Under the pieces are notes generated by a model. It made no database searches and was not told the origin of the DNA. It saw only the letters and a program-made list of their open reading frames with translations. DNA of 33,760 nucleotides. Source: Microbacterium sp. GTDB taxonomy: Bacteria; Actinomycetota; Actinomycetes; Actinomycetales; Microbacteriaceae. Position numbers and translations under genes: made by a program. The stretch lies in the NCBI GenBank assembly GCA_029239165.1, contig JAQZBG010000039.1:1-33760 (forward strand), given 5' to 3'. Positions 3,519-32,523 of the stretch are shown piece by piece. How positions within the stretch are numbered: position 1 is the stretch's first letter; every line of letters starts with the position of its first letter.

Positions 3519-4119
3519 CACCCGCGTCGGAGTCCTCGCGCTGCAGGGCGACGTGCGCGAGCACGCCGCCCTGCTCGCGCACCTGGGCGCCGACGTCATG
3601 CTGGTGCGTCGGCCGGAAGAGCTCTCATCCGTCGACGGCCTCGTGATCCCCGGCGGCGAGTCCAGCGTGATCGACAAGCTGTCGCGCATCTTCGGGATGC
3701 AGGAGCCGATTCGCACCGCGATCCGTGCCGGACTACCCGTGTACGGGACGTGCGCCGGACTCATCCTGCTCGCGGACACGGTGCTCGACGGGATCGACGG
3801 CCAGGAATCCTTCGGTGGAATGGACATCGACGTCCGTCGCAACGCTTTCGGGCGCCAGACGGAGTCGTTCGAGACGGAACTCGACGTCCCCGCGCTGGGG
3901 GAGCCTCCGGTGCACGCGACGTTCATCCGTGCCCCGGTCGTGGAGCGGGTGGGCACCGGTGTCGACGTCTTGGCAGCGCTCACGGACGGCACGGTCGTCG
4001 CCGTCGAGCAGGGCAGCCTGCTCGGAACGAGCTTCCACCCCGAGGTCGACGGCGAGACGCGCTTTCACGAACGCTTCCTCGAAAAGGCCCGGGCCCGCAC
4101 CGGGACGCGCGTGCGCTAG
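3508..4119 (+). CDS. pdxT: Pyridoxal 5'-phosphate synthase glutaminase subunit PdxT
   Basis: [53 protein letters not shown] start at 3508 (alternative GTG 3475) overlapping the end of pdxS. Confidence 0.95.
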
Positions 4120-4796
4120 CGTCGACGGTCGAGCAGCCAGTCGTACAGTTCGGGGTTGTCGTAGGTCTCGGTCCAGGAATCATGGCCGACCCCCGCATAT
4201 CGCGTGAACCGCACGTCGGCGTCGAGCGACCGGAGTTCGGTGATGATCTCCTCCGTGGCGGCGATCGGCACGACATCGTCGGCGTCGCCGTGGAAGGCCC
4301 AGACAGGGAGGTGACGAATCGGCGCCGCACTCTGCATCCAGAGCCCACCGCAGATCGGCGCGATCGCGGCGAACCGATCGGGATAGCGCACCGCCAGACT
4401 CCAGGTTCCGAAGCCGCCCATGCTGAGCCCGGTCACCGAGATGCGGGCCGGACCGACACGGTGCGTCGAGACGACCTCGTCGAGAAGCCCGGACAAGGTC
4501 GAGAGCTCCGTGACCCACTGACTCGACTCACCGCACTGAGGGGTGACGAGGATGAAGGGGAACTCGTGACCGTCATCTGCCAGACGCGGCGGGCCGTGCA
4601 CCGCAGCGAGGTCAAGGTCGGAACCTCGCTCGCCCGCACCGTGCAGGAACAGCACCAGGGGCCACAGTCTGCCCGGATCGGCGTCGTAGGCATCCGGAAG
4701 GTGGACCAGATAGCGCAGCACATCTGCCGGGGTCGGGGCGTCGTCGCGCACGTCCGCGGTGCGGACGGCAGGAAAGATGTGTCGTGATCTGCGCAT
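4116..4796 (-). CDS. Alpha/beta hydrolase (esterase/phospholipase-like)
   Basis: LVLFLHGAGERG oxyanion region, ISVTGLSMGGFGTW nucleophile elbow GLSMGG, VWAFHGDADDVVP, and a late GHDSW His. Start at 4796 is supported by GGAGG just upstream; the longer ORF to 4889 is less likely. Confidence 0.8.
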   Translation of the reverse strand: MRRSRHIFPAVRTADVRDDAPTPADVLRYLVHLPDAYDADPGRLWPLVLFLHGAGERGSDLDLAAVHGPPRLADDGHEFPFILVTPQCGESSQWVTELSTLSGLLDEVVSTHRVGPARISVTGLSMGGFGTWSLAVRYPDRFAAIAPICGGLWMQSAAPIRHLPVWAFHGDADDVVPIAATEEIITELRSLDADVRFTRYAGVGHDSWTETYDNPELYDWLLDRRR

Positions 4797-4940
4797 GCAT
4801 CCATCCTCCGCCATCCGTGCCGATCGTCCGACAGGACGCTGCTCCAGAGGGTCTGTTGGCGGAAGACGCATCGTGAATCCCGCAAGCATTTACGTGGGAT
4901 GAGCCGGCTCGGTCGAAGGTTTCGTGCCCGGTCGCAGCGG

Positions 4941-6311
4941 TCACCAACGGATACGCAGAAACTCCGCACGGAGTTTCTCGCCTCGCTGGGGGTTCAGGGT
5001 CTCGACCCAGGAGATGGGGCCGAGCAGATGTGCACGGAAATCGACGAGTCGGCGGTGATTCTGGCTGCCCGGACCGTGCACGACGCAGTTGTGGATCGTC
5101 GCCTTGAGCCGGTCGTAGTCGTCCCGTGAGACATTCGTTCGCTGGTTGACGACGATTCCGGTCACGCTCTGCCTGACGCCCTGGCGTCGGACCCTCGTTT
5201 TGTGGGGGTTGGCCAGGTGCCCCTCGTCCTCGATGATCCGCTGCACACCACGGATGAAGGCATCAGGTCGCTTCGCGAGTCTCGGACCGCCGCTGAACGC
5301 GAGGTCATCGGCGTATCGCGTGTAGGTCGCATCGACGCCATCCGCCCATCCCGTCAGCCGTGAATCGAGGCGCCGGATGGCGAGGTTAGCAAGCATCGGC
5401 GAGGAGGGGGCGCCCTGCGGCAGATGACTCGTGGCCAGAGCCCGACGTAGGGCGAACCGCTCGTCGGATGATCCGCCCGGTGGCATGGCAGCAAGCACGC
5501 GCGGAGGAACGGCGTTGGTGCACAGCCCGGTCACGACGTGCGCGACGGGTTCGGACAGTCCCGACTGCCGAAGTGTTCCGTAGATGCGACCGGCCGTCAC
5601 GCGGGAGAAGAACGTGGTGAGGTCGAGGGATATGACGATGTCGGCCCCCGTGTGGCGCGCCGCCCCAGTGGCCGCGCTGCGACCGGGCATGAAGCCGTGG
5701 GCGGCATCGTTCACGGCTATGAGGCCGAGCACCTGTTCCAGGAGACCGCGCTGCACGCGGCGCATCCGTTGCTCCGGGATCTCCAGCAACCTGGGGATCC
5801 GCCCGTGCCGTGTGCGCCACTCGTACCGGTAGTGGTGCAAGGCGCCTGAGCGTGCGCGACGATTCCACTGTTTGGTGTCGGCGAGCCACTGGAGCTGGCC
5901 GACGTCCAGATCGAGCGCGGCGGCGAGATCCGGGATGCTGTCGATGCGGGGAAGAGCGCCCGAGGGCGGCTGCGACGCCGACGGACCGATTACGCGGTGG
6001 TGGATGCGCAACGGCGCGCGGCGCTCGTCGGCCTTGCGCACCGCTTCTGCGAAATCGGGCGAGCGGAGGATCACCGACGTCAGCAGTCGCGGGGCATCGA
6101 CAGGCGGGCGGACGAAGGAGGTCAACACGTCGCCGACGAGCGGAGAGAGCCAACGGCGACGCGCTCCCATGACGTACGCGCCGGCCTCGACGAGCTGCTC
6201 TTTCGCCCAGACCTCTGAGGCGAGGAAAGCATCGGCCAGAGAGGCGGCCACCAACGACGGCAACGGTCGCGGCGTGCGCCCAAGCACGCGTGACGCGGTG
6301 GAGGGCGGCAT
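4941..6311 (-). CDS. Retron-type reverse transcriptase with about 120-aa N-terminal extension
   Basis: RT motifs: ISLDLTTFF, LPQGAPSSPMLANL, YTRYADDLAFSG, NPHKTRVRRQGVRQSVTGIVVN (VTG of region Y), and C-terminal HLLGPISWVETLNPQRGEKLRAEF typical of retron RTs. Confidence 0.93.
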   Translation of the reverse strand: MPPSTASRVLGRTPRPLPSLVAASLADAFLASEVWAKEQLVEAGAYVMGARRRWLSPLVGDVLTSFVRPPVDAPRLLTSVILRSPDFAEAVRKADERRAPLRIHHRVIGPSASQPPSGALPRIDSIPDLAAALDLDVGQLQWLADTKQWNRRARSGALHHYRYEWRTRHGRIPRLLEIPEQRMRRVQRGLLEQVLGLIAVNDAAHGFMPGRSAATGAARHTGADIVISLDLTTFFSRVTAGRIYGTLRQSGLSEPVAHVVTGLCTNAVPPRVLAAMPPGGSSDERFALRRALATSHLPQGAPSSPMLANLAIRRLDSRLTGWADGVDATYTRYADDLAFSGGPRLAKRPDAFIRGVQRIIEDEGHLANPHKTRVRRQGVRQSVTGIVVNQRTNVSRDDYDRLKATIHNCVVHGPGSQNHRRLVDFRAHLLGPISWVETLNPQRGEKLRAEFLRIRW

Positions 6312-6339
6312 CAGTGGGCAGCCGTGGAGCGGGCACCGG

Positions 6340-6510
6340 GCGTGCGATGGCCTGCGTACGACTCGTCCATCAGTGCGGGCACCGGTCTGCGCGAAGCGCA
6401 GTAAGGCGCCTGCGGCGTTCGTTCCAGGTCAGACTGCGTACCCCGGGGTGACCCCGGAGAGAGCGGAACACGTCGTGAACCACTCGCCTCGTCCGCAAGC
6501 CATCGCACGC
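6340..6510 (-). ncRNA. Candidate retron msr-msd non-coding RNA
   Basis: Inverted repeat a1 (6489-6510) and a2 (6340-6361): GCGTGCGATGGCTTGCGGACGA pairs with TCGTACGCAGGCCATCGCACGC (20 WC, 1 G.U, 1 mismatch). Internal hairpins at 6441-6459 and 6375-6413. Located directly upstream of the RT on the same strand. Confidence 0.85.
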
Positions 6511-6514
6511 GGCC

Positions 6515-6520
6515 ACGATA
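6515..6520 (-). promoter_or_regulatory. Possible -10 element (TATCGT) for the retron ncRNA/RT transcript
   Basis: TATCGT on the minus strand (plus-strand acgata) fits TAnnnT; expected start is about 5-8 nt downstream, at the beginning of a1. No clear -35. Confidence 0.4.
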
Positions 6521-6642: not shown

Positions 6643-7986
6643 CTACTCCACGGCGAGGGTGCGCGGAATCTCGGTGCGGAGCGCGGTGACCGTCGGCAGG
6701 ACTGTGGCGGCCAGGAGCAGAGCCAGTCCACCGCCGGCGATCAGCCCGATCGTCGGGAACGCGATGATGGGGCCGGACAACGAGAGCTTTCCGGCGATGA
6801 CGAGGCCTCCGACCGCCGTGGCGGCTACCCCCAACAGGGCCGCAGTGACCGCATAGGCGACAGCCTCCCAGATCGCAGTGAGCACGATCGCACCGCGCGT
6901 GGAGCCCACGGCCTGGATGAGCGCGAACTCCCGCTCGCGGGTATGACCGGACATGAACACGGTCGCCGCGGCTGCCACGCCCGAAAGGAGGAGAGGCCCG
7001 CCGAGGAGGATCACGACCCCCTCGGGGGCGAGGTCGAACCCCGCGTCGCTGCCGCTTCGCGCGGCTTCCGCCGCGGCCAGCGTCACGCCGGTCGTGTAGA
7101 GCCCTCCCGCGAGGGCGATCGCCACCATGAGCGGCCCGATCGCCGCGCTCGACCGAGCCAGGCGGTACCTGGCGGAGTTCCGGGCGAGGAACCACGTCGC
7201 GGAGGCCGTCGTCGGCAGCAGCGAAGTCCAGCCGCGGAGGACGAGAGGGAACACGATCGGCCCTGCGGCGGCAAGGGCGGCCGCGATCAACGGTGTGAGC
7301 AGGATGGCCTGCCCCGAGAATGCGGACATCGACGCGTCGCCGTCGAGGTTCATCGCGAGCGCCGTGGTGCCTGCAAGAGCGGACACGGTCAGGATCATGC
7401 GGATCCATCCCATCCGCACCCGCGGGGGCTCTGCATCGCGAAGTGCCTCGATCGCCGGGGTCCGACTGGCCCGCCGTGCGCTGCGCAGCCCTCCGAGCAC
7501 CACCGTGAGCGCGACCGCGGCGATCACGAGGAGGCCGCTGCCCATGCCGAGGTGGAGGCTGACGCCCTGCATCTCGGGCCACTCCCGGAACACCCAGACG
7601 AAGAAGGATGGGAACACCGGCAAGGCGAGGAGCCAGCCGACGAGCGCGCCGACAATGCCGATGACGCCGAGCTGGCTGAGCACCACCGCGGCGACCAGCG
7701 CGGGCCGTACGCCGACGAGCTGCCACAGCGCGTAGTCGCGCAATTGCAGGGCGATCGTGAGATTCGCCGCGGAACTGAGCACGATGAGCGCCGTGATCGC
7801 CGCGAACATGATCACAGCGGAGCTGGTGCTGGCGAGCCCTTCCTGCACAGCGCCAGCGTGGAAGGCGCCGGTCTCGAGCAGACCGGCGGCGTGCGCACCG
7901 ACGAATCCGGAGGTGACGGTCACGGCGAGCACTCCGAGCCACACGCGCCAGCGCATGATCAGATCGGAGGCGATCAGGGCGATCAC
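6643..7986 (-). CDS. ABC transporter permease (FtsX/MacB-like)
   Basis: Multiple hydrophobic segments; RSARRASRTPAIEALRDAEPPR and REREFALIQAVGSTRGAI typical of FtsX-like permeases; 4-bp overlap with the ATPase gene. Confidence 0.88.
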   Translation of the reverse strand: MIALIASDLIMRWRVWLGVLAVTVTSGFVGAHAAGLLETGAFHAGAVQEGLASTSSAVIMFAAITALIVLSSAANLTIALQLRDYALWQLVGVRPALVAAVVLSQLGVIGIVGALVGWLLALPVFPSFFVWVFREWPEMQGVSLHLGMGSGLLVIAAVALTVVLGGLRSARRASRTPAIEALRDAEPPRVRMGWIRMILTVSALAGTTALAMNLDGDASMSAFSGQAILLTPLIAAALAAAGPIVFPLVLRGWTSLLPTTASATWFLARNSARYRLARSSAAIGPLMVAIALAGGLYTTGVTLAAAEAARSGSDAGFDLAPEGVVILLGGPLLLSGVAAAATVFMSGHTREREFALIQAVGSTRGAIVLTAIWEAVAYAVTAALLGVAATAVGGLVIAGKLSLSGPIIAFPTIGLIAGGGLALLLAATVLPTVTALRTEIPRTLAVE

Positions 7987-8723
7987 GCCGAAGCCCCGGC
8001 GAGAGTGATCGCCTCGAGGACCTGTTCCGGAGTGGGCCGTCGCAGTTCTCGATGGATCGTCCCGTCGCGGAGCACGAGGACACGATCGGCGAGCGCGGCG
8101 GCCTCGAGATCATGGGTGACCATGACGACGGATCCGCCGTCACCGACCGACGCACGGAGCAGGCCGAGCACATCGGTGCCCGTGGCCGTGTCGAGCGACC
8201 CAGTCGGTTCATCCGCGAACACGATGTCCGGCCGCAGCGCGAGCACGCGGGCGATGGCGATCCGCTGCTGCTGGCCGCCCGAGAGCTGTCCGGGTCGATG
8301 CCCGCCGCGGTCGGTCAAGCCGACGTCCGCGAGCGCACGGTCCACGGCCACGCGCTGCACGCTCCGCCGTGCGAGCCGTGCGGGAAGCGCGATGTTCTCC
8401 CGTGCCGTCAGCGAAGGGATGAGATTGAAGGACTGGAAGACGAACCCGACATGTCGACGACGCAGGTCGGCGAGCGCACCGCGCCGAAGGGAAGAGAGCT
8501 CTCGACCTGCGAGGTGGACGCTCCCGGTGTCGTAGGGCTCGAGACCCGAGAGGCAGTAGAGCAGGGTCGATTTGCCGGAACCGCTCGGACCGACGATGCT
8601 CACCATCTCGCCGGGATGCACGTCGAGGGATATCCCGCGCAGGACGGAGACGCGCGGCTCCTTCCGACTGGTTCCGGGAAATGTCTTCTCGAGCTTCGCG
8701 GCGCGAATCAGTGGTTCGATCAC
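7983..8723 (-). CDS. ABC transporter ATP-binding protein (LolD/MacB-like)
   Basis: Walker A GPSGSGKSTLLYCLSG, signature LSGGQQQRIAIARVLA, Walker B IVFADEPTGSLD. Confidence 0.95.
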   Translation of the reverse strand: MIEPLIRAAKLEKTFPGTSRKEPRVSVLRGISLDVHPGEMVSIVGPSGSGKSTLLYCLSGLEPYDTGSVHLAGRELSSLRRGALADLRRRHVGFVFQSFNLIPSLTARENIALPARLARRSVQRVAVDRALADVGLTDRGGHRPGQLSGGQQQRIAIARVLALRPDIVFADEPTGSLDTATGTDVLGLLRASVGDGGSVVMVTHDLEAAALADRVLVLRDGTIHRELRRPTPEQVLEAITLAGASA

Positions 8724-10130: not shown

Positions 10131-10773
10131 AGACTCCGCGCTGCTCCGCGAGGCGCTGACGGCTCTGCTCGAACGGCTCGGCCACATCGTCGTCGCGACG
10201 GCGCAGTCGGCGCCCGAGCTGCGGGAGGCGTTCGAACGTCTCACCGCGGCCGGCGGCCCACCCGACCTCGTCGTGACCGACGTGCGCATGCCGCCGGACG
10301 ACACGGATGACGGACTCCGCGCAGCGCTCGACATCCGCGCCCTCCACCCGGCGCAACCCGTCATGGTGCTCTCCCAGTACATCGCGGACACGTACGCGCG
10401 AGAGCTGCTCACGCTTCCGGGTGGCGGCATCGGCTACTTGCTGAAGGATCGGGTGAGTCGTGTCCGCGACTTCGCGACCGCACTGGACACGGTCGCAGAG
10501 GGCGGCACCGTCATCGACCCGGACGTGGTCCAGCACCTTCTGAGCAGTTCGCGTCAGGGGCCGCTCGACGCGCTCACCGGGCGGGAGCGCGAGGTCCTCG
10601 GCCTGATGGCAGACGGACAGTCGAACGCCGACATCGCCGACTCGCTCACGCTCACGGATGCTGCGGTGAGCAAACACATCGGCAACATCTTCACGAAGCT
10701 CGGTCTCGGCCCCATCGAGGAGAACCGTCGCGTGAGAGCCGTCCTGACCTACCTCGACGCCGCGCGCTCCTGA
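10111..10773 (+). CDS. NarL/FixJ-family response regulator
   Basis: Receiver MRLLLAEDSALLREAL...DLVVTDVRMPP plus LuxR HTH LTGREREVLGLMADGQSNADIADSLTLTDAAVSKHIGNIFTKLGL; overlaps kinase gene end. Confidence 0.95.
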   Translation: MRLLLAEDSALLREALTALLERLGHIVVATAQSAPELREAFERLTAAGGPPDLVVTDVRMPPDDTDDGLRAALDIRALHPAQPVMVLSQYIADTYARELLTLPGGGIGYLLKDRVSRVRDFATALDTVAEGGTVIDPDVVQHLLSSSRQGPLDALTGREREVLGLMADGQSNADIADSLTLTDAAVSKHIGNIFTKLGLGPIEENRRVRAVLTYLDAARS

Positions 10774-11699
10774 ACCTGCAACAGCGCCACGAGCCACCGC
10801 AGTGCAGGGAGCGCCTGGGCCCGTTGGAATGCGCGGAGCCCGGGAAGCTCGGGTATCTCGGGTTGCGCCTGCGCGTGCCAGAGGTACGACGCGAAGCCCG
10901 AGATCACCGGCAGCATGTCGTGAGCAGGCGGAGCTCCGTGCTCTTCGAAGAGTGGCCATGCCTCTTCGCAGGAGGGGCCGCCGGATGCCTCGACGCTCGG
11001 CAGCAGACACGGGAGATCGATCCAGGGGGCACCGCGGCGGGCGTGCGGCCAGTCCAGCAGTCGGGCGCCCGCTTCGTCGATCAGGATGTTGTCGGCGCGG
11101 ACGTCATCATGCACGACGACGTCGCCGTCCACCGCGTCATGGACGCCTCCTTCGATGCGCAGCAGCTCCGGTATCCACTGCCGTGACGCATCCGGGAGTC
11201 CCGCGAGCAGATGCGCATCGTCGGCGATCTCGGCCCACCGCGAGAAGCCGTGCACCATGGTGTCTGCGGCGGTGGGCAGGGTCGCCGGCGCAGGAGTGGT
11301 GGAGAGCATCCGGAGGGTGTCCGCGACGGCGTGCAGGTCATCGGTCGTCCAAGGGCTTCCCGGGTGATGCCCGTCGATGGCCTCGAGCACGAGCGCGGCG
11401 CCGGCCGTCTCATCGATCTCGCCCATCACTCCGGGGGCGATCGTCGGCGGCAGCGTCGCCACCACCTGCATCTCCGCGCGAAGGAAGCGCAGGGAATCGA
11501 GGTGCCAGTCTCGCGCGCAGGCTTTCACGAAGGCCTTCCCCTTGGTGGTGGTGACGACACCCGCGTAGGACGCGCTGAATCCGCTCTGCGCGGGGTCATC
11601 GCGGACGAATCGTCCTCCGATCACGTCCACGATGCGCGCGCGGAGCACCAGGGGGAGTGCGGTCCACTCCGGTCGAAGCCGGTCTGCGCCTGCGTTCAT
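10749..11699 (-). CDS. Aminoglycoside phosphotransferase (APH)-family protein
   Basis: VVHDDVRADNILIDEAGARLLDWPHARRGAPWIDLPCLLPSVEASGG kinase-like catalytic loop (HDDxRxDN) and DWP region; start chosen at MNAGADRLRPEW. Confidence 0.82.
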   Translation of the reverse strand: MNAGADRLRPEWTALPLVLRARIVDVIGGRFVRDDPAQSGFSASYAGVVTTTKGKAFVKACARDWHLDSLRFLRAEMQVVATLPPTIAPGVMGEIDETAGAALVLEAIDGHHPGSPWTTDDLHAVADTLRMLSTTPAPATLPTAADTMVHGFSRWAEIADDAHLLAGLPDASRQWIPELLRIEGGVHDAVDGDVVVHDDVRADNILIDEAGARLLDWPHARRGAPWIDLPCLLPSVEASGGPSCEEAWPLFEEHGAPPAHDMLPVISGFASYLWHAQAQPEIPELPGLRAFQRAQALPALRWLVALLQVQERAASR

Positions 11700-11792
11700 C
11701 GTGACGTTCCCTTCGCTCGCAGCGTCGCGATATCCCCGGGGCACGGGTTCCTCGACGCTAGCAGCAGCCGGCGGCAGGGCCAACGGTCTCGG

Positions 11793-22559: not shown

Positions 22560-23918
22560 TCAGCCGCCCAGAGCGCTCAGCCACGCACGGCGAGCCTCGA
22601 GTGCGTCAGCGGCCTCCTTGGCCGCCTTCTTGTCGCCGGCCTTCTCGGCCGCGGCGACCTCGGCTTCGAGCTTCTCGATGGCCTCCAGCAGCTGCGAACT
22701 CATGTCGTTCGCGCGTGCCTTGGTCTCGGGGTTGTTCTTCTTCCAGTCGACGTCCTCGCGTGCCTTCACACCCTGCTCGATGGCACGGAGCCGATCGTCC
22801 AGCGCACGCTCCTTGTCGCGGGGGAAGATGCGGCCGATCTCGTCCCACTGACGCTGGATGCGCGTGAGAAGGGCGCGGGCGCGCTTGATGTTGGACTCGT
22901 CGGCGACGGCCTTCGCCTCTTCGAGAAGAGCCTCGCGCGCCTCGATCTTCGGAGCGGACTCCGCTTCTTCCGCCGCGGACTGCTCGGCTCGAGCCGCATA
23001 GAGAGCGTCGCCCGCAGCCTTGAACCGTGCCCAGAGCGCGTCGTCCGCCTTGCGACCGGCGCGGCCGGCTGCCTTCCATTCGTCGAGCAACGTGCGGTAC
23101 GCGGGAATCCCGTCGGTGCCACGCGGTGCGAGAGCCTCCGCGCGCTCGACCAGACGGGTCTTCACGTCGCGGGCGCTCTTGTGCGCATCGTCGAGCTCGG
23201 AGTAGAACGCGCGACGCTGCTTGTCGACGACGGCGCGCGCATCGCGGAACCGCTTCCAGAGCTGCTGGGAGATGCCCTTGGAGAGGCGGGGCCCGTTCTG
23301 CTGCTGGGCCTGCCATGCGTCGAAGAGCTCGCCGAGTTCGGCGGTGACCTGCTTCCACTGCACCTTGCTGAGATCGCGAGCGGCGATGGCCTCGGCCTTC
23401 TCGACGAGCTCCGTACGCTCGGCGATTGCCTTGTCGACCAGCTCCTTGGCCTGCTGCGCTTCTTGCTCGGTGGCCTCGGACAGCGAGGAGGTCAGTGCGT
23501 TGAGCCGATCACGGAGTCCTGCGAGGTCTCCGACCGCGGCGGCATCGGTCGCCTCGTCGATGAGATGCGCGGCCTGCTTCGCGAGGTCGCTCGCCGACGC
23601 GCCACCGGCCTGCTTGCGCTGCTCGAGGGTGTGCACCTTGAAGGCGATGTCGTCGAACTTGCGCACGAAGTAGGCGAGTGCCTCCTCGGGCGTACCGTCG
23701 GGATACTGCCCCACGACGCGCCAGACATCGCCTTCACGCACCTCGACGGTGCCGTCGTCCGAGACGCGGCCCCATTCGGCAGAGGTGGAAGACGCTGCGG
23801 GCGACGGTGCGGGCGCAGCAGGCGTGACCGCCGCCGGCTTGGGCGTCTTCGGCGGCATCGGCACAGCGGGCGGTGCGGGGACGGGGGGAGTCGGCTTCGA
23901 AGGCTCGGTGGCAGACAC
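22560..23918 (-). CDS. DUF349 domain-containing protein
   Basis: Repeated W..F..A.....KQ...F..L..A helical units (LWKRFRDARAVVDKQRRAFYSELDDAHKSARDVKTRLVERAEAL) typical of DUF349; Pro/Ala-rich N-terminus. Confidence 0.88.
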   Translation of the reverse strand: MSATEPSKPTPPVPAPPAVPMPPKTPKPAAVTPAAPAPSPAASSTSAEWGRVSDDGTVEVREGDVWRVVGQYPDGTPEEALAYFVRKFDDIAFKVHTLEQRKQAGGASASDLAKQAAHLIDEATDAAAVGDLAGLRDRLNALTSSLSEATEQEAQQAKELVDKAIAERTELVEKAEAIAARDLSKVQWKQVTAELGELFDAWQAQQQNGPRLSKGISQQLWKRFRDARAVVDKQRRAFYSELDDAHKSARDVKTRLVERAEALAPRGTDGIPAYRTLLDEWKAAGRAGRKADDALWARFKAAGDALYAARAEQSAAEEAESAPKIEAREALLEEAKAVADESNIKRARALLTRIQRQWDEIGRIFPRDKERALDDRLRAIEQGVKAREDVDWKKNNPETKARANDMSSQLLEAIEKLEAEVAAAEKAGDKKAAKEAADALEARRAWLSALGG

Positions 23919-23980
23919 GTGATTCTCCTTGCGCGGTAGGGCCGCGGGAGGCGGAAAGGACGAGGCTCAGCCTATCGATC

Positions 23981-24027
23981 CGCGTAACACCGCCCCGGCT
24001 TTTCGCGAAACACCGTGTCTCTATCGT
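23981..24027 (+). promoter_or_regulatory. nirB promoter with tandem CGCGWAACACCG repeat and -10-like TATCGT
   Basis: CGCGTAACACCG (23981-23992) and CGCGAAACACCG (24004-24015), 23 bp start-to-start; TATCGT 24022-24027. Confidence 0.6.
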
Positions 24028-24052
24028 CGAGTCCACGGACAGAGGAGGGCTC

Positions 24053-26632
24053 GTGATCGTTCGAGAGAGCACATCATCGGATGTCGTGGTCGTGGGGGCC
24101 GGGATGGTCGCGCACCGATTCGTCGAGAGCCTGCTCCGCGGCGAGGGCGCGGCTCCGACCGTCACCGTCATCGGGGAAGAGGCGCGAGCCCCGTACGACC
24201 GCGTTGGCCTGACTTCCTTCTTCACCGGTGCGAGCGCCGACGACCTCGCACTCGACGCGCAGACCCTGCAGGACGAGCGGGTGCGCTTCATCGCTGACGA
24301 CCGCGTGACGGGGATCGATCGCGCTCGTCGCACGGTGCGCACGCGCTCGGGCGTGGTCCATGCCTACGGGACCCTGGTCCTCGCCACCGGCTCGTACGCA
24401 CTGCGGCCGGCTGTCGACGGCGCAGACCTCCCCGGCTGTTTCGTCTATCGCACGCTCGACGACGTCGCCGCGATCGACGCGTTCGTCCAGCGCCGCACGG
24501 CGGAACTCGGCCGACCGCTGCGGGGGACGGTGATCGGCGGTGGTCTGCTGGGCCTGGAGGCCGCCGGCGCGTTGCAGGGTCTCGACGTCGAGTGCACCGT
24601 GGTGCAGTCGTCCGACCGGCTCATGTCCGCCCAGCTCGACCTCGCGGGCGGCACCATCCTGCGTCGCCTCATCGAGTCGAAAGGCATCGATGTGCGGACG
24701 GGAACCCGCACCACACGGCTCGATCCGGACGCGTCCGGCTCCGTCGCGGCACTGCAGTTCCAGGACGGCAGCATGCACGACGCGGACATCGTCATCTTCA
24801 CGGTCGGTGTGCGCCCGCAGGACTCGCTGGCCCGACTCGCCGACCTCGCCGTGCACCCCAGCGGTGGTGTGCTGATCGATTCGCGATGCCGGACCGCAGA
24901 CGACGACATCCTCGCGATCGGCGAGGTCGCCAGCTTCGAAGGGCGCTCCGTCGGGCTCGTGGCCCCCGGATACGCCATGGCGGAGGTGGCGGCGACGCGA
25001 CTCCTCGGCGGCGACGCGACGTTCCCGGGCTATGACGACTCCGCGAAGCTGAAGCTCTCCGGCGTCGATGTGGCGAGCTTCGGCGACGCCTTCGCGACCA
25101 CGCCGAACGCACTGGACGTCGTCTACACAGACCCGGTCAACGGCGTGTACAAGAAACTCGTCCTCTCCGACGACGCGAAGACCCTCCTGGGCGGCATCCT
25201 CGTCGGCGACGCCTCCGCGTACGGATCGCTGCGGCCCCTGGTGGGAGCTGCACTGGGCGCTGACCCGGCTGCGTATCTGATGCCGGAGGGAGGCGCCGCA
25301 CTCCCCGACAACGAGCTGCCGGCAGAGGCGGTCGTCTGCTCCTGCTCGAACGTCACAGCCGGACGCATCCGTGAGGCGGTGCACGCCGAAGGCTGCACGG
25401 ATGCCGCCGCCGTGAAGGCCTGCACCAAGGCGGGCGCGACGTGCGGCTCCTGCATCTTCGCGGTGAAGAAGATCGTCGGCCAGGAGCTGACCAAGCTCGG
25501 ACAGACGACATCCGACGCACTGTGCGAGCACTTCTCGATGTCGCGTCGTCAACTCTTCGACGCGGTGCGCGTGTCCGAGCTCACGACCTTCAGTGCGATC
25601 ATCGCCCGTTTCGGGACCGGACGCGGCTGCGACATCTGCAAGCCGGCCCTCGCGAGCATCCTCTCCGTCCTCGTCGGCGCGCACGTGCTCGACGGCGAGA
25701 ACGCCGCTCTGCAGGACACCAACGATCACGTCATGGCCAACATGCAGAAGGACGGCACCTACTCGGTGGTGCCGCGGATGCCAGGCGGCGAGGTCACCCC
25801 CGCGGGGCTGATCGCGATCGGGAACATCGCCGAGACCTACGGGCTCTACACGAAGATCACCGGTGGGCAGCGGATCGACATGTTCGGCGCCCGTCTCGAG
25901 CAGCTGCCGCAGATCTGGCAGCGCCTGGTCGATGCCGGATTCGAGTCGGGACAGGCATACGGCAAGGCGCTGCGCACGGTGAAGTCCTGCGTCGGCTCCA
26001 CCTGGTGCCGCTACGGGGTGCTGGATGCCGTCGGCATGGCCGTGCGTCTCGAGCTCCGCTACCGGGGCCTGCGTGCCCCGCACAAGCTCAAGGTGGGTGT
26101 GTCGGGCTGCGCCCGCGAATGCGCGGAGGCGCGCTCCAAGGACGTCGGTGTGATCGCCACCGAGACGGGTTGGAACATGTATGTCGGTGGGAACGGCGGT
26201 TTCTCTCCCCGCCACGCGGAACTGCTCGCCGCCGACCTCGACGACGAGGGCCTGATCCGCGCGATCGACCGCTTCTTCATGTACTACATCCGCACGGCGG
26301 ACCGTCTTCAGCGCACGGCGGGGTGGTGCGCCGAACTCGACGGCGGGCTGGACGGCCTCCGCGAGGTGATCTTCGACGACAGTCTCGGCATCTGCGACGA
26401 CCTCGATGCGGCCATGGGCGTTCATGTCGATCGCTATGAGGACGAATGGGCGGCGACGCTGCGCGACCCGGTGAAGCTGCGGCGGTTCGAGTCGTTCGTG
26501 AACGCGACGGACACTCCCGACCCCTCGCTGGCATATGTGCCCGAGCGCGGTCAGGTGCGTCCGGCGACGACGGAGGAGCGATCCGATGCATCGGTGCTCA
26601 TCGCGGGGACGACGTTGGAGGTGCGACGATGA
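24053..26632 (+). CDS. nirB: Nitrite reductase (NADH) large subunit NirB
   Basis: FAD/NAD domain, BFD-like [2Fe-2S] domain (VVCSCSNVTAGRIREAV...TCGSC), siroheme/[4Fe-4S] sulfite-reductase domain (SCVGSTWCRYG, KVGVSGCARECAEARSKDVGVIATETGWNMYVGGNGG). GTG start 24053 with AGGAGGG upstream. Confidence 0.95.
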   Translation: MIVRESTSSDVVVVGAGMVAHRFVESLLRGEGAAPTVTVIGEEARAPYDRVGLTSFFTGASADDLALDAQTLQDERVRFIADDRVTGIDRARRTVRTRSGVVHAYGTLVLATGSYALRPAVDGADLPGCFVYRTLDDVAAIDAFVQRRTAELGRPLRGTVIGGGLLGLEAAGALQGLDVECTVVQSSDRLMSAQLDLAGGTILRRLIESKGIDVRTGTRTTRLDPDASGSVAALQFQDGSMHDADIVIFTVGVRPQDSLARLADLAVHPSGGVLIDSRCRTADDDILAIGEVASFEGRSVGLVAPGYAMAEVAATRLLGGDATFPGYDDSAKLKLSGVDVASFGDAFATTPNALDVVYTDPVNGVYKKLVLSDDAKTLLGGILVGDASAYGSLRPLVGAALGADPAAYLMPEGGAALPDNELPAEAVVCSCSNVTAGRIREAVHAEGCTDAAAVKACTKAGATCGSCIFAVKKIVGQELTKLGQTTSDALCEHFSMSRRQLFDAVRVSELTTFSAIIARFGTGRGCDICKPALASILSVLVGAHVLDGENAALQDTNDHVMANMQKDGTYSVVPRMPGGEVTPAGLIAIGNIAETYGLYTKITGGQRIDMFGARLEQLPQIWQRLVDAGFESGQAYGKALRTVKSCVGSTWCRYGVLDAVGMAVRLELRYRGLRAPHKLKVGVSGCARECAEARSKDVGVIATETGWNMYVGGNGGFSPRHAELLAADLDDEGLIRAIDRFFMYYIRTADRLQRTAGWCAELDGGLDGLREVIFDDSLGICDDLDAAMGVHVDRYEDEWAATLRDPVKLRRFESFVNATDTPDPSLAYVPERGQVRPATTEERSDASVLIAGTTLEVRR

Positions 26633-31197: not shown

Positions 31198-31244
31198 CGC
31201 GAAACACGTCGCGTGACATCGGCGAAACACGGGCCGAATAGCCT
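31198..31244 (+). promoter_or_regulatory. Promoter of the NirB-like flavoprotein with tandem CGAAACAC repeat and -10-like TAGCCT
   Basis: CGAAACAC at 31200-31207 and 31223-31230 (23 bp apart), GTGAC-N6-GAAAC at 31213-31228, TAGCCT at 31239-31244. Confidence 0.6.
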
Positions 31245-31284
31245 CGCGAGTACGGCACGATCGCCGCCGACAGGAGCCTTACCG

Positions 31285-32523
31285 ATGAAACACCCGCCTG
31301 CCACCGAGATCGTCGTCGTCGGGGCGGGGATGGCAGCGCAGCGTTTCGTCGAGCAACTCGTACATCGTGCCGACGACCACATGCGCGTGACGGTGATCGG
31401 CGATGAGGGTCGCCCACCGTACGACCGCACCCGCCTTCGGGAGCTGTTCCTCGGCGGATCCGCCGACGATCTTCCGCTGCCGCTCCACGCCTTCGAGGAC
31501 GACCGCGTCGAGTTGATCGTCGATGATCGCGTGTTGCACATCGACCGTAGGACCAAGACCGTGCGCACGCGTTCGCGTCGCGTTCATCGTTACGACGTCC
31601 TCGTGCTCGCGACCGGGGCTTCGGCCGGCCGGGTGGCTGTGGAGGGCGCGGGTCTTCCCGGCTGCTTCTCCTACCGCACCGTCGACGATGCGGAGGCGCT
31701 GCGTGACTTCGTGACCGTACGCGCATCGGAACTCGATCGGGATCTTCGCGGGGTCGTCGTCGGCGGCGGGCCCATCGGGCTCGAGGCGGCCGGTGCACTG
31801 CAGGCGATCGGAGTGGATGCCACGGTGGTGCAGTTCGCGGATCGGCTGATGGAAGCCCAGCTCGACGGTACCGCCGGAAGCATCGTGAAGCGCCATCTGC
31901 AGGCTCGAGGGATCGCGGTCCGAACCGGCACGCGGGTGACACGGCTCGATCCGGATGAGTCCGGCGTCGTCACCGCCATCGAGTTCCAGGACGGCACCTT
32001 CCAGCGCGTGGACGTCGTCGTGTTCACGGTCGGGCTGCGCGCGCGCGACGAGCTCGCCCGCAATGCGGGCATCGCGGTCCATCCCTACGGAGGCATCGTC
32101 ATCGACGACGGCTGCCGCACTTCGGATCCGGACGTGCTGGCCATCGGAGACGTCGCGAATCTCGACGGACGACGCTTCGGCCTCGTCGCTCCCGCTCGTG
32201 ACATGGCCGACGTCGCGGTCGGGTGCATCCTCGGCGACGAAGCGAGGTTCGCCGGGTTCGACGAATCCGCTGCCATCACCCTGGCCGGCGTCGAGGTGGC
32301 GAGCTTCGGGGACGCGCTGGCACGGACACCCGATGCGGTCGACGTGCTCTACGCGGACCCCGTCGCCGGGGTCTACCGGAAGCTGGTGCTGGCGGGCGAT
32401 GCTCACACGCTGCTGGGCGGAATCCTGGTCGGCGACGCCTCGGCATACCCGGCGCTGCACACTCTCGTCGGCGCGCGCCTGGAAGCGGATCCGTCGTCGT
32501 ACGTCCTGCCGAGCCGCCTCTAG
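31285..32523 (+). CDS. FAD-dependent NAD(P)H oxidoreductase paralogous to the NirB N-terminal half
   Basis: Co-linear with NirB N-terminus (VVVGAGMAAQRFVEQL; TVIGDEGRPPYDRTRL; LLGGILVGDASAYPALHTLVGARLEADPSSYVLP), ending before the [2Fe-2S] domain. Confidence 0.92.
   Translation: MKHPPATEIVVVGAGMAAQRFVEQLVHRADDHMRVTVIGDEGRPPYDRTRLRELFLGGSADDLPLPLHAFEDDRVELIVDDRVLHIDRRTKTVRTRSRRVHRYDVLVLATGASAGRVAVEGAGLPGCFSYRTVDDAEALRDFVTVRASELDRDLRGVVVGGGPIGLEAAGALQAIGVDATVVQFADRLMEAQLDGTAGSIVKRHLQARGIAVRTGTRVTRLDPDESGVVTAIEFQDGTFQRVDVVVFTVGLRARDELARNAGIAVHPYGGIVIDDGCRTSDPDVLAIGDVANLDGRRFGLVAPARDMADVAVGCILGDEARFAGFDESAAITLAGVEVASFGDALARTPDAVDVLYADPVAGVYRKLVLAGDAHTLLGGILVGDASAYPALHTLVGARLEADPSSYVLPSRL

Follow-up and report, generated by a model that had tools for sequence, protein, structure and literature searches.

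The window considered in this study is a stretch of 33,760 nt from Microbacterium sp. (contig JAQZBG010000039.1), on whose minus strand a small hairpin lies upstream of a gene for a reverse transcriptase (RT). A sequence-only reading had proposed that the hairpin is the msd segment of a retron, the part of its RNA that is copied into DNA. The locus raises two questions: whether the hairpin is a genuine retron template, and how the RNA that carries it is related to the message of the RT gene that it adjoins. The features discussed are collected in Table 1.

Table 1. Coordinates in the window of the RNA elements, reading frames and putative promoter element, with the basis for each.
Feature	Position	Strand	Basis
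-10 box TATCGT (TANNNT class), 6 nt before GTG	6515-6520	-	sequence
Mini-ORF, 65 codons, from GTG at a1 base 1 through the whole ncRNA	6311-6508	-	reading frame
a1, 5' strand of 20-bp end stem	6489-6508	-	both-side change at 15/20 pairs
Candidate priming (branching) G, directly 3' of a1, in conserved GAG	6488	-	inferred
msr stem-loop 1, SL1 (GAGTGG/CCGCTC)	6461-6485	-	both-side change at 4/6 pairs
msr stem-loop 2, SL2 (CTCCGGGG TCA CCCCGGGG), nearly invariant	6441-6459	-	alignment
Linker, SL2 to hairpin; possible site of cDNA 3' end	6414-6440	-	position only
Probable msd stem, hairpin 3 of the RNA	6375-6413	-	covariation; folding alone and in whole region
Template stretch, msd hairpin to a2; predicted first bases copied	6362-6374	-	position; inferred
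a2, 3' strand of end stem	6342-6361	-	covariation
Retron-type RT, 456 aa	4941-6311	-	profile, sequence and fold matches; motifs
RT N-terminal helical domain, residues 18-96	6024-6260	-	model; conserved

The hairpin and the RNA that contains it

Read from 6413 down to 6375, the minus strand is GCAGGCGCCTTACTGCGCTTCGCGCAGACCGGTGCCCGC, with the fold ((.((((((...((((((...))))))...)))))).)). In isolation the hairpin has a calculated energy of -22.8 kcal/mol (z -3.0), which a single one of 200 dinucleotide shuffles equals. Identical helices arise when the region is folded whole, and the plus strand, as DNA, makes the identical stem. What excludes chance, however, is mainly the comparison across sequences, that is, pairing and compensatory changes. 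In an alignment of 21 sequences, 87.5% of cells are paired in the outer helix and 96.8% in the inner one; both sides have changed at 6 of the 8 outer and 3 of the 6 inner pairs (9 of the 14 pairs in the hairpin). Fold and alignment together thus confirm the sequence, position and pairing first proposed for the hairpin, with one correction: the outer helix had been drawn with six base pairs, and its innermost pair (C-G here) is paired in just 7 of the 21 relatives, so that the conserved outer helix, as judged from the alignment, is one of 5 bp plus 2 bp. A Rho-independent terminator was considered and rejected, there being no T run after the hairpin.

The hairpin is part of an RNA of about 167 nt on the minus strand, directly upstream of the RT gene and framed by a 20-bp stem between its two ends (a1 and a2), which is paired in 90.7% of cells. 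Taken together, the five helices (end stem, SL1, SL2, and the outer and inner helices of the hairpin) are paired in 92.5% of cells, as compared to 42-46% in controls with the partner slid along the sequence and a level reached in none of 500 shuffles. Compensatory changes are found at 28 of the 48 pairs in the alignment, whose 21 Microbacteriaceae sequences were drawn from loci selected for having a start codon (considered below). Unaided, RNAalifold arrives at these helices too, with one addition: a short GGY/RCC helix by which the msr part would be closed. Upstream of the RT, eight Microbacterium loci have in common a sharply bounded conserved block of about 190 nt, which is present, with many changes, in other genera of the Microbacteriaceae.

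The layout is that of a retron RNA. Retrons have complementary a1/a2 ends of about 8-30 nt, and the stem here is of 20 bp; msr stem-loops come first, then an msd hairpin ahead of a2, all upstream of the RT and all conserved. The G at 6488, which is invariant in the 21 sequences, agrees with the position rule for the priming G (PMC6868368, where GAGC and CAGA variants are also known). The start of msDNA had been predicted near plus-strand position 6362 (ctcgtccatcagtgcgggcaccgg), and this is the first base past the a1/a2 stem.

A covariance model (R1) was trained on Microbacteriaceae sequences. Of 100 homologue loci, it detects the RNA next to the RT in 99, the remaining one (L002) having almost no sequence upstream of its RT match, and it finds a single copy in the RNA's own genome (3.7 Mb). 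Matches outside the training set come from Nocardioidaceae-type and Geodermatophilaceae-type families and from records of Tsukamurella, Dietzia and Burkholderia; the label Nocardioidaceae is presumptive, families having been assigned by way of named relatives (Modestobacter) or by inference. Since the model reaches families and genera on which it was not trained, the RNA family predates, by this comparison, the block's sequence similarity within Microbacterium, and the hairpin belongs to the family throughout. In one family, 47 of 112 genomes carry the retron family. A gathering scan of the window against Rfam gave zero matches, and phage records gave only distant ones, of 25% identity.

Members of this ncRNA family are present on two Burkholderia megaplasmids (L134, 2620-2805; L135, 2568-2753), with RTs 42-43% identical to that of the window, the one in L134 lacking an annotated feature. 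In genus g46, ncRNA and RT point in opposite directions (L028, 1287-1471, and L125, 5787-5971, both minus strand), and in L007 it lies some 300 nt upstream of the RT, with purine-rich DNA between. RT matches are fragmented or contain stops in five genomes (G1439, G1459, G1497, G1501 and G098), a sign that the RT gene may often decay, and most of this is in the family of Modestobacter.

The reverse transcriptase and its surroundings

The motifs NAXXH and VTG define retron-type RTs (PMC6868368). The RT encoded here has VTG at residues 383-385, in a VTGxVVN context, YADD at 333 and, at region X, NDAAH at 201, one substitution away from NAXXH. The protein carries Pfam RVT_1, and its best profiles are of the PADLOC RT_other/RT_outgroup class (PDLC02949 and PDLC03740, E 1.6e-172 and 1.2e-161), matched over nearly the full length; the next is RT_XIII (PDLC02956, E 3.5e-86), which covers residues 118-454. 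NCBIfam retron profiles match below their cut-offs. An AlphaFold2 model (mean pLDDT 92.7) finds its best fold match in the Ec86 RT (Z 27.0, 302 residues aligned, rmsd 3.1), and retron RTs are the top RT matches by profile, by PDB sequence and by fold alike.

An RT beside a structured RNA, with no separate effector, might also be expected of a defence system outside the retrons, such as DRT2 or DRT9, one that would copy another segment of the RNA. The RT speaks strongly against it: the Drt2 profile scores 31 bits, where its cut-off is 390 and the St85 retron RT profile scores 147, and the folds of DRT2 and DRT9 rank far below those of retron RTs. I consider this alternative exceedingly improbable. 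The sequence-only assignment of the hairpin as msd stem is instead well supported, by its covariation, by the position of the RNA beside the RT and by the match of the RT model to the Ec86 RT. Enclosed by a1/a2, placed after two msr-like stem-loops and before a2, and next to a retron-type RT, the hairpin is probably the DNA-template stem of a genuine retron RNA.

No gene other than the RT is shared among 28 loci, within flanks of 3-6 kb, and with neighbours so unconserved, no effector is apparent. The helical domain at the N-terminus of the RT has no clear match in PDB (best Z 3.6); an effector or sensor function would most naturally reside there, though this is a guess.

As to the surroundings, the cassette is flanked by a hydrolase/pdx cluster on one side and an ABC transporter on the other (4116-4889 and 6643-8723 of the window). 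In Microbacterium sp. A20 (L031) the same downstream side is joined to a match for the end of the window's gene at 10749-11783, and the upstream side of the cassette has therefore been rearranged. Elsewhere in the window, two ORFs (23873-26632 and 31213-32523) that resemble FAD/NAD oxidoreductase (nitrite-reductase-like) domains have very similar starts, likely the result of a partial duplication.

A putative start codon at the first base of the RNA

Here a1 opens with the bases GTG, and from this codon an open frame runs through the whole ncRNA to a TGA (6313-6311) that shares its A with the ATG of the RT (TGATG, 6309-6313). A GTG or ATG is found at these bases in 96 of the 99 loci hit by the covariance model, 91 of them within one base of the aligned position and five (L008, L011, L014, L020 and L022) read by eye, the alignment of the model being shifted there by about 3 nt; it is absent in L007, L028 and L062. 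In the homologues the codon usually comes 6-7 nt after a TANNNT -10 box. In M. tuberculosis, both such boxes, centred 7-12 nt ahead of the transcription start site (TSS), and mRNAs that lack a leader are well documented (PMC3898074). From the spacing between box and codon, the transcript is predicted to be leaderless, starting at or next to a1 base 1.

An alternative view of these facts would be that the RNA is an ordinary untranslated retron ncRNA, that the RT has its own start, and that the open frame is a by-product of GC richness and of the constraints on the RNA. Indeed, openness of the frame is a weak test. Stops are few in GC-rich DNA and open frames common, so that shuffled sequences in which the RT start is kept still arrive, on average, at the RT 67% of the time, and the case for translation rests on the conservation of the start codon, on frame controls and on loci with a single possible start. 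Among the 21 aligned sequences, a1 position 1 is always G or A and position 2 always T, while the a2 partner of the latter is A in 9, C in 8, G in 2 and T in 2. Because these loci were chosen for having a start codon, it is the drift of the partner and not the constancy of the base that is informative, and the count of 96 in 99 given above is the less biased measure. The frame that begins at a1 reaches the RT with at most one overlap in 34 of 41 cases (one representative per ncRNA cluster), as against 8 and 15 for the other two frames. In nine loci where the frames are fused (L008, L009, L014, L015, L018 and L020-L023), the a1 codon is the sole ATG, GTG or TTG ahead of the conserved RT domain.

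The frame enters the RT usually by in-frame fusion or by an overlap of the form ATGA, GTGA or TGATG, and the overlaps recur despite widely varying lengths of the spacer between a2 and RT. In plasmids of Tsukamurella and Dietzia, the mini-ORF ends in ATGA exactly at the independently annotated start of the RT. The Shine-Dalgarno (SD) score at coupled RT starts is on average that of the background (-2.8 vs -3.5); strong SDs (-14.2 and -10.6) are found in L007 and L028, where RNA and RT lie apart or inverted and the a1 codon is missing. The chains from frame to RT fail in 7 of 88 cases, some of these in apparently broken RT genes, and the chains with three overlaps (Modestobacter) are weak evidence for coupling. 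In L012, an in-frame TGA in SL1 breaks the mini-ORF, and three overlapping restarts then reach the RT frame.

What seems to be preserved is frame and start, not protein. The three codon positions are equally variable (entropy 0.78/0.76/0.75), and their GC contents (0.71/0.70/0.65) differ from those of the RT (0.71/0.53/0.80). A candidate conserved peptide (SPGxPRGT) was rejected, since SL2 alone explains the motif and codon positions are alike. With codon statistics that give no sign of selection on the peptide, the product of the mini-ORF is probably a by-product. The equal variability of codon positions suits an untranslated RNA as well, as do two g46 loci in which ncRNA and RT are split or inverted, so that the RNA is kept uncoupled. 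Set against the retention of start-codon bases as their partners drift, the nine single-start loci, and recurrent overlaps at RT starts that lack an SD, an RNA that is merely untranslated appears unlikely. So far as comparison of the loci can tell, this RNA seems in many actinobacteria to have a second part to play, as the translated beginning of the message for its own RT.

If the RT message begins with this RNA and ribosomes read it, as predicted, the RNA might be no more than a translational leader, an attenuator whose hairpin regulates expression of the RT and is never copied. Such a leader would have little reason to show the full retron layout (a1/a2 ends, msr loops and msd hairpin) together with a retron RT, nor to persist 300 nt from the RT or inverted with respect to it (L007 and L028). 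Moreover, the Burkholderia relatives keep the RNA with no start codon at a1, in keeping with PMC3898074, in whose counts leaderless mRNAs are rare among enterobacteria. The attenuator is appreciably less probable than even the untranslated ncRNA.

Proposed workings and relation to known systems

The reading that I prefer, with a probability of about three in four, is that of a solo retron of the PADLOC RT_other/outgroup class, whose RNA would be both the template for msDNA and a leaderless mRNA read into the RT. The element is, on this account, an outgroup-class retron with a new arrangement of coding and template. Transcription would begin at a1 base 1 or adjacent to it, as the -10 box indicates, and the first 167 or so nt would fold in the order a1, msr SL1, msr SL2, linker, msd hairpin and a2. 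By analogy with the retron family, the RT would bind the RNA, prime at the G beside a1, and copy upward from about 6362 through the hairpin, giving a short branched msDNA; my guess is that its 3' end falls in the linker, before the very stable SL2. The same 5' end would serve as leaderless mRNA, with the GTG frame that opens a1 spanning the ncRNA and ribosomes delivered to the RT by TGATG coupling here and by ATGA or GTGA overlap or direct fusion elsewhere.

When the RNA is folded, its start codon would be hidden in the end of the a1/a2 stem, and translation and formation of the RNP should therefore exclude each other. A tentative extension, which I regard as slightly less likely than not, is that each transcript is either message or template: ribosomes would have to pass through a1, msr, msd and a2 for the RT to be made, and RNA that is folded, bound by RT or copied would hide or destroy the start, and the RT, by negative feedback on its own synthesis, would be self-limiting.

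Retron ncRNAs have, to my knowledge, been regarded as non-coding and as lying apart from the reading frame of the RT. A search of the literature, of limited coverage and so of little weight as to absence, found no report of a leaderless, translationally coupled or translated retron ncRNA. If the preferred reading is true, a retron can limit its RT without an SD site, RT starts as annotated in this clade can leave out residues that the ncRNA encodes, one family merges template and coding start across several actinobacterial families, and a small solo retron is on offer for genome editing in actinobacteria.

Among known systems, Retron-Eco1 (Ec86) resembles this one in the fold of its RT (Z 27.0) and the VTG motif, in an a1/a2-framed RNA upstream of the RT with msr loops and then an msd hairpin, and in a priming-type G beside a1. 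It differs in that the RT here has an extra N-terminal part of about 115 residues, there is no neighbouring effector gene, and the ncRNA opens with a start codon that would be read through into the RT. By RT profile the likeness is greatest to the PADLOC RT_other/RT_outgroup class, whose profiles are the best and nearly full-length matches. That of the type XIII retron RT (PDLC02956) leaves the N-terminal part unmatched, and no conserved partner gene is seen here. The leaderless mRNAs of M. tuberculosis (PMC3898074) are alike in that a TANNNT box places the TSS on a GTG or ATG, whereas here the predicted leaderless coding start is also the first base of a retron RNA.
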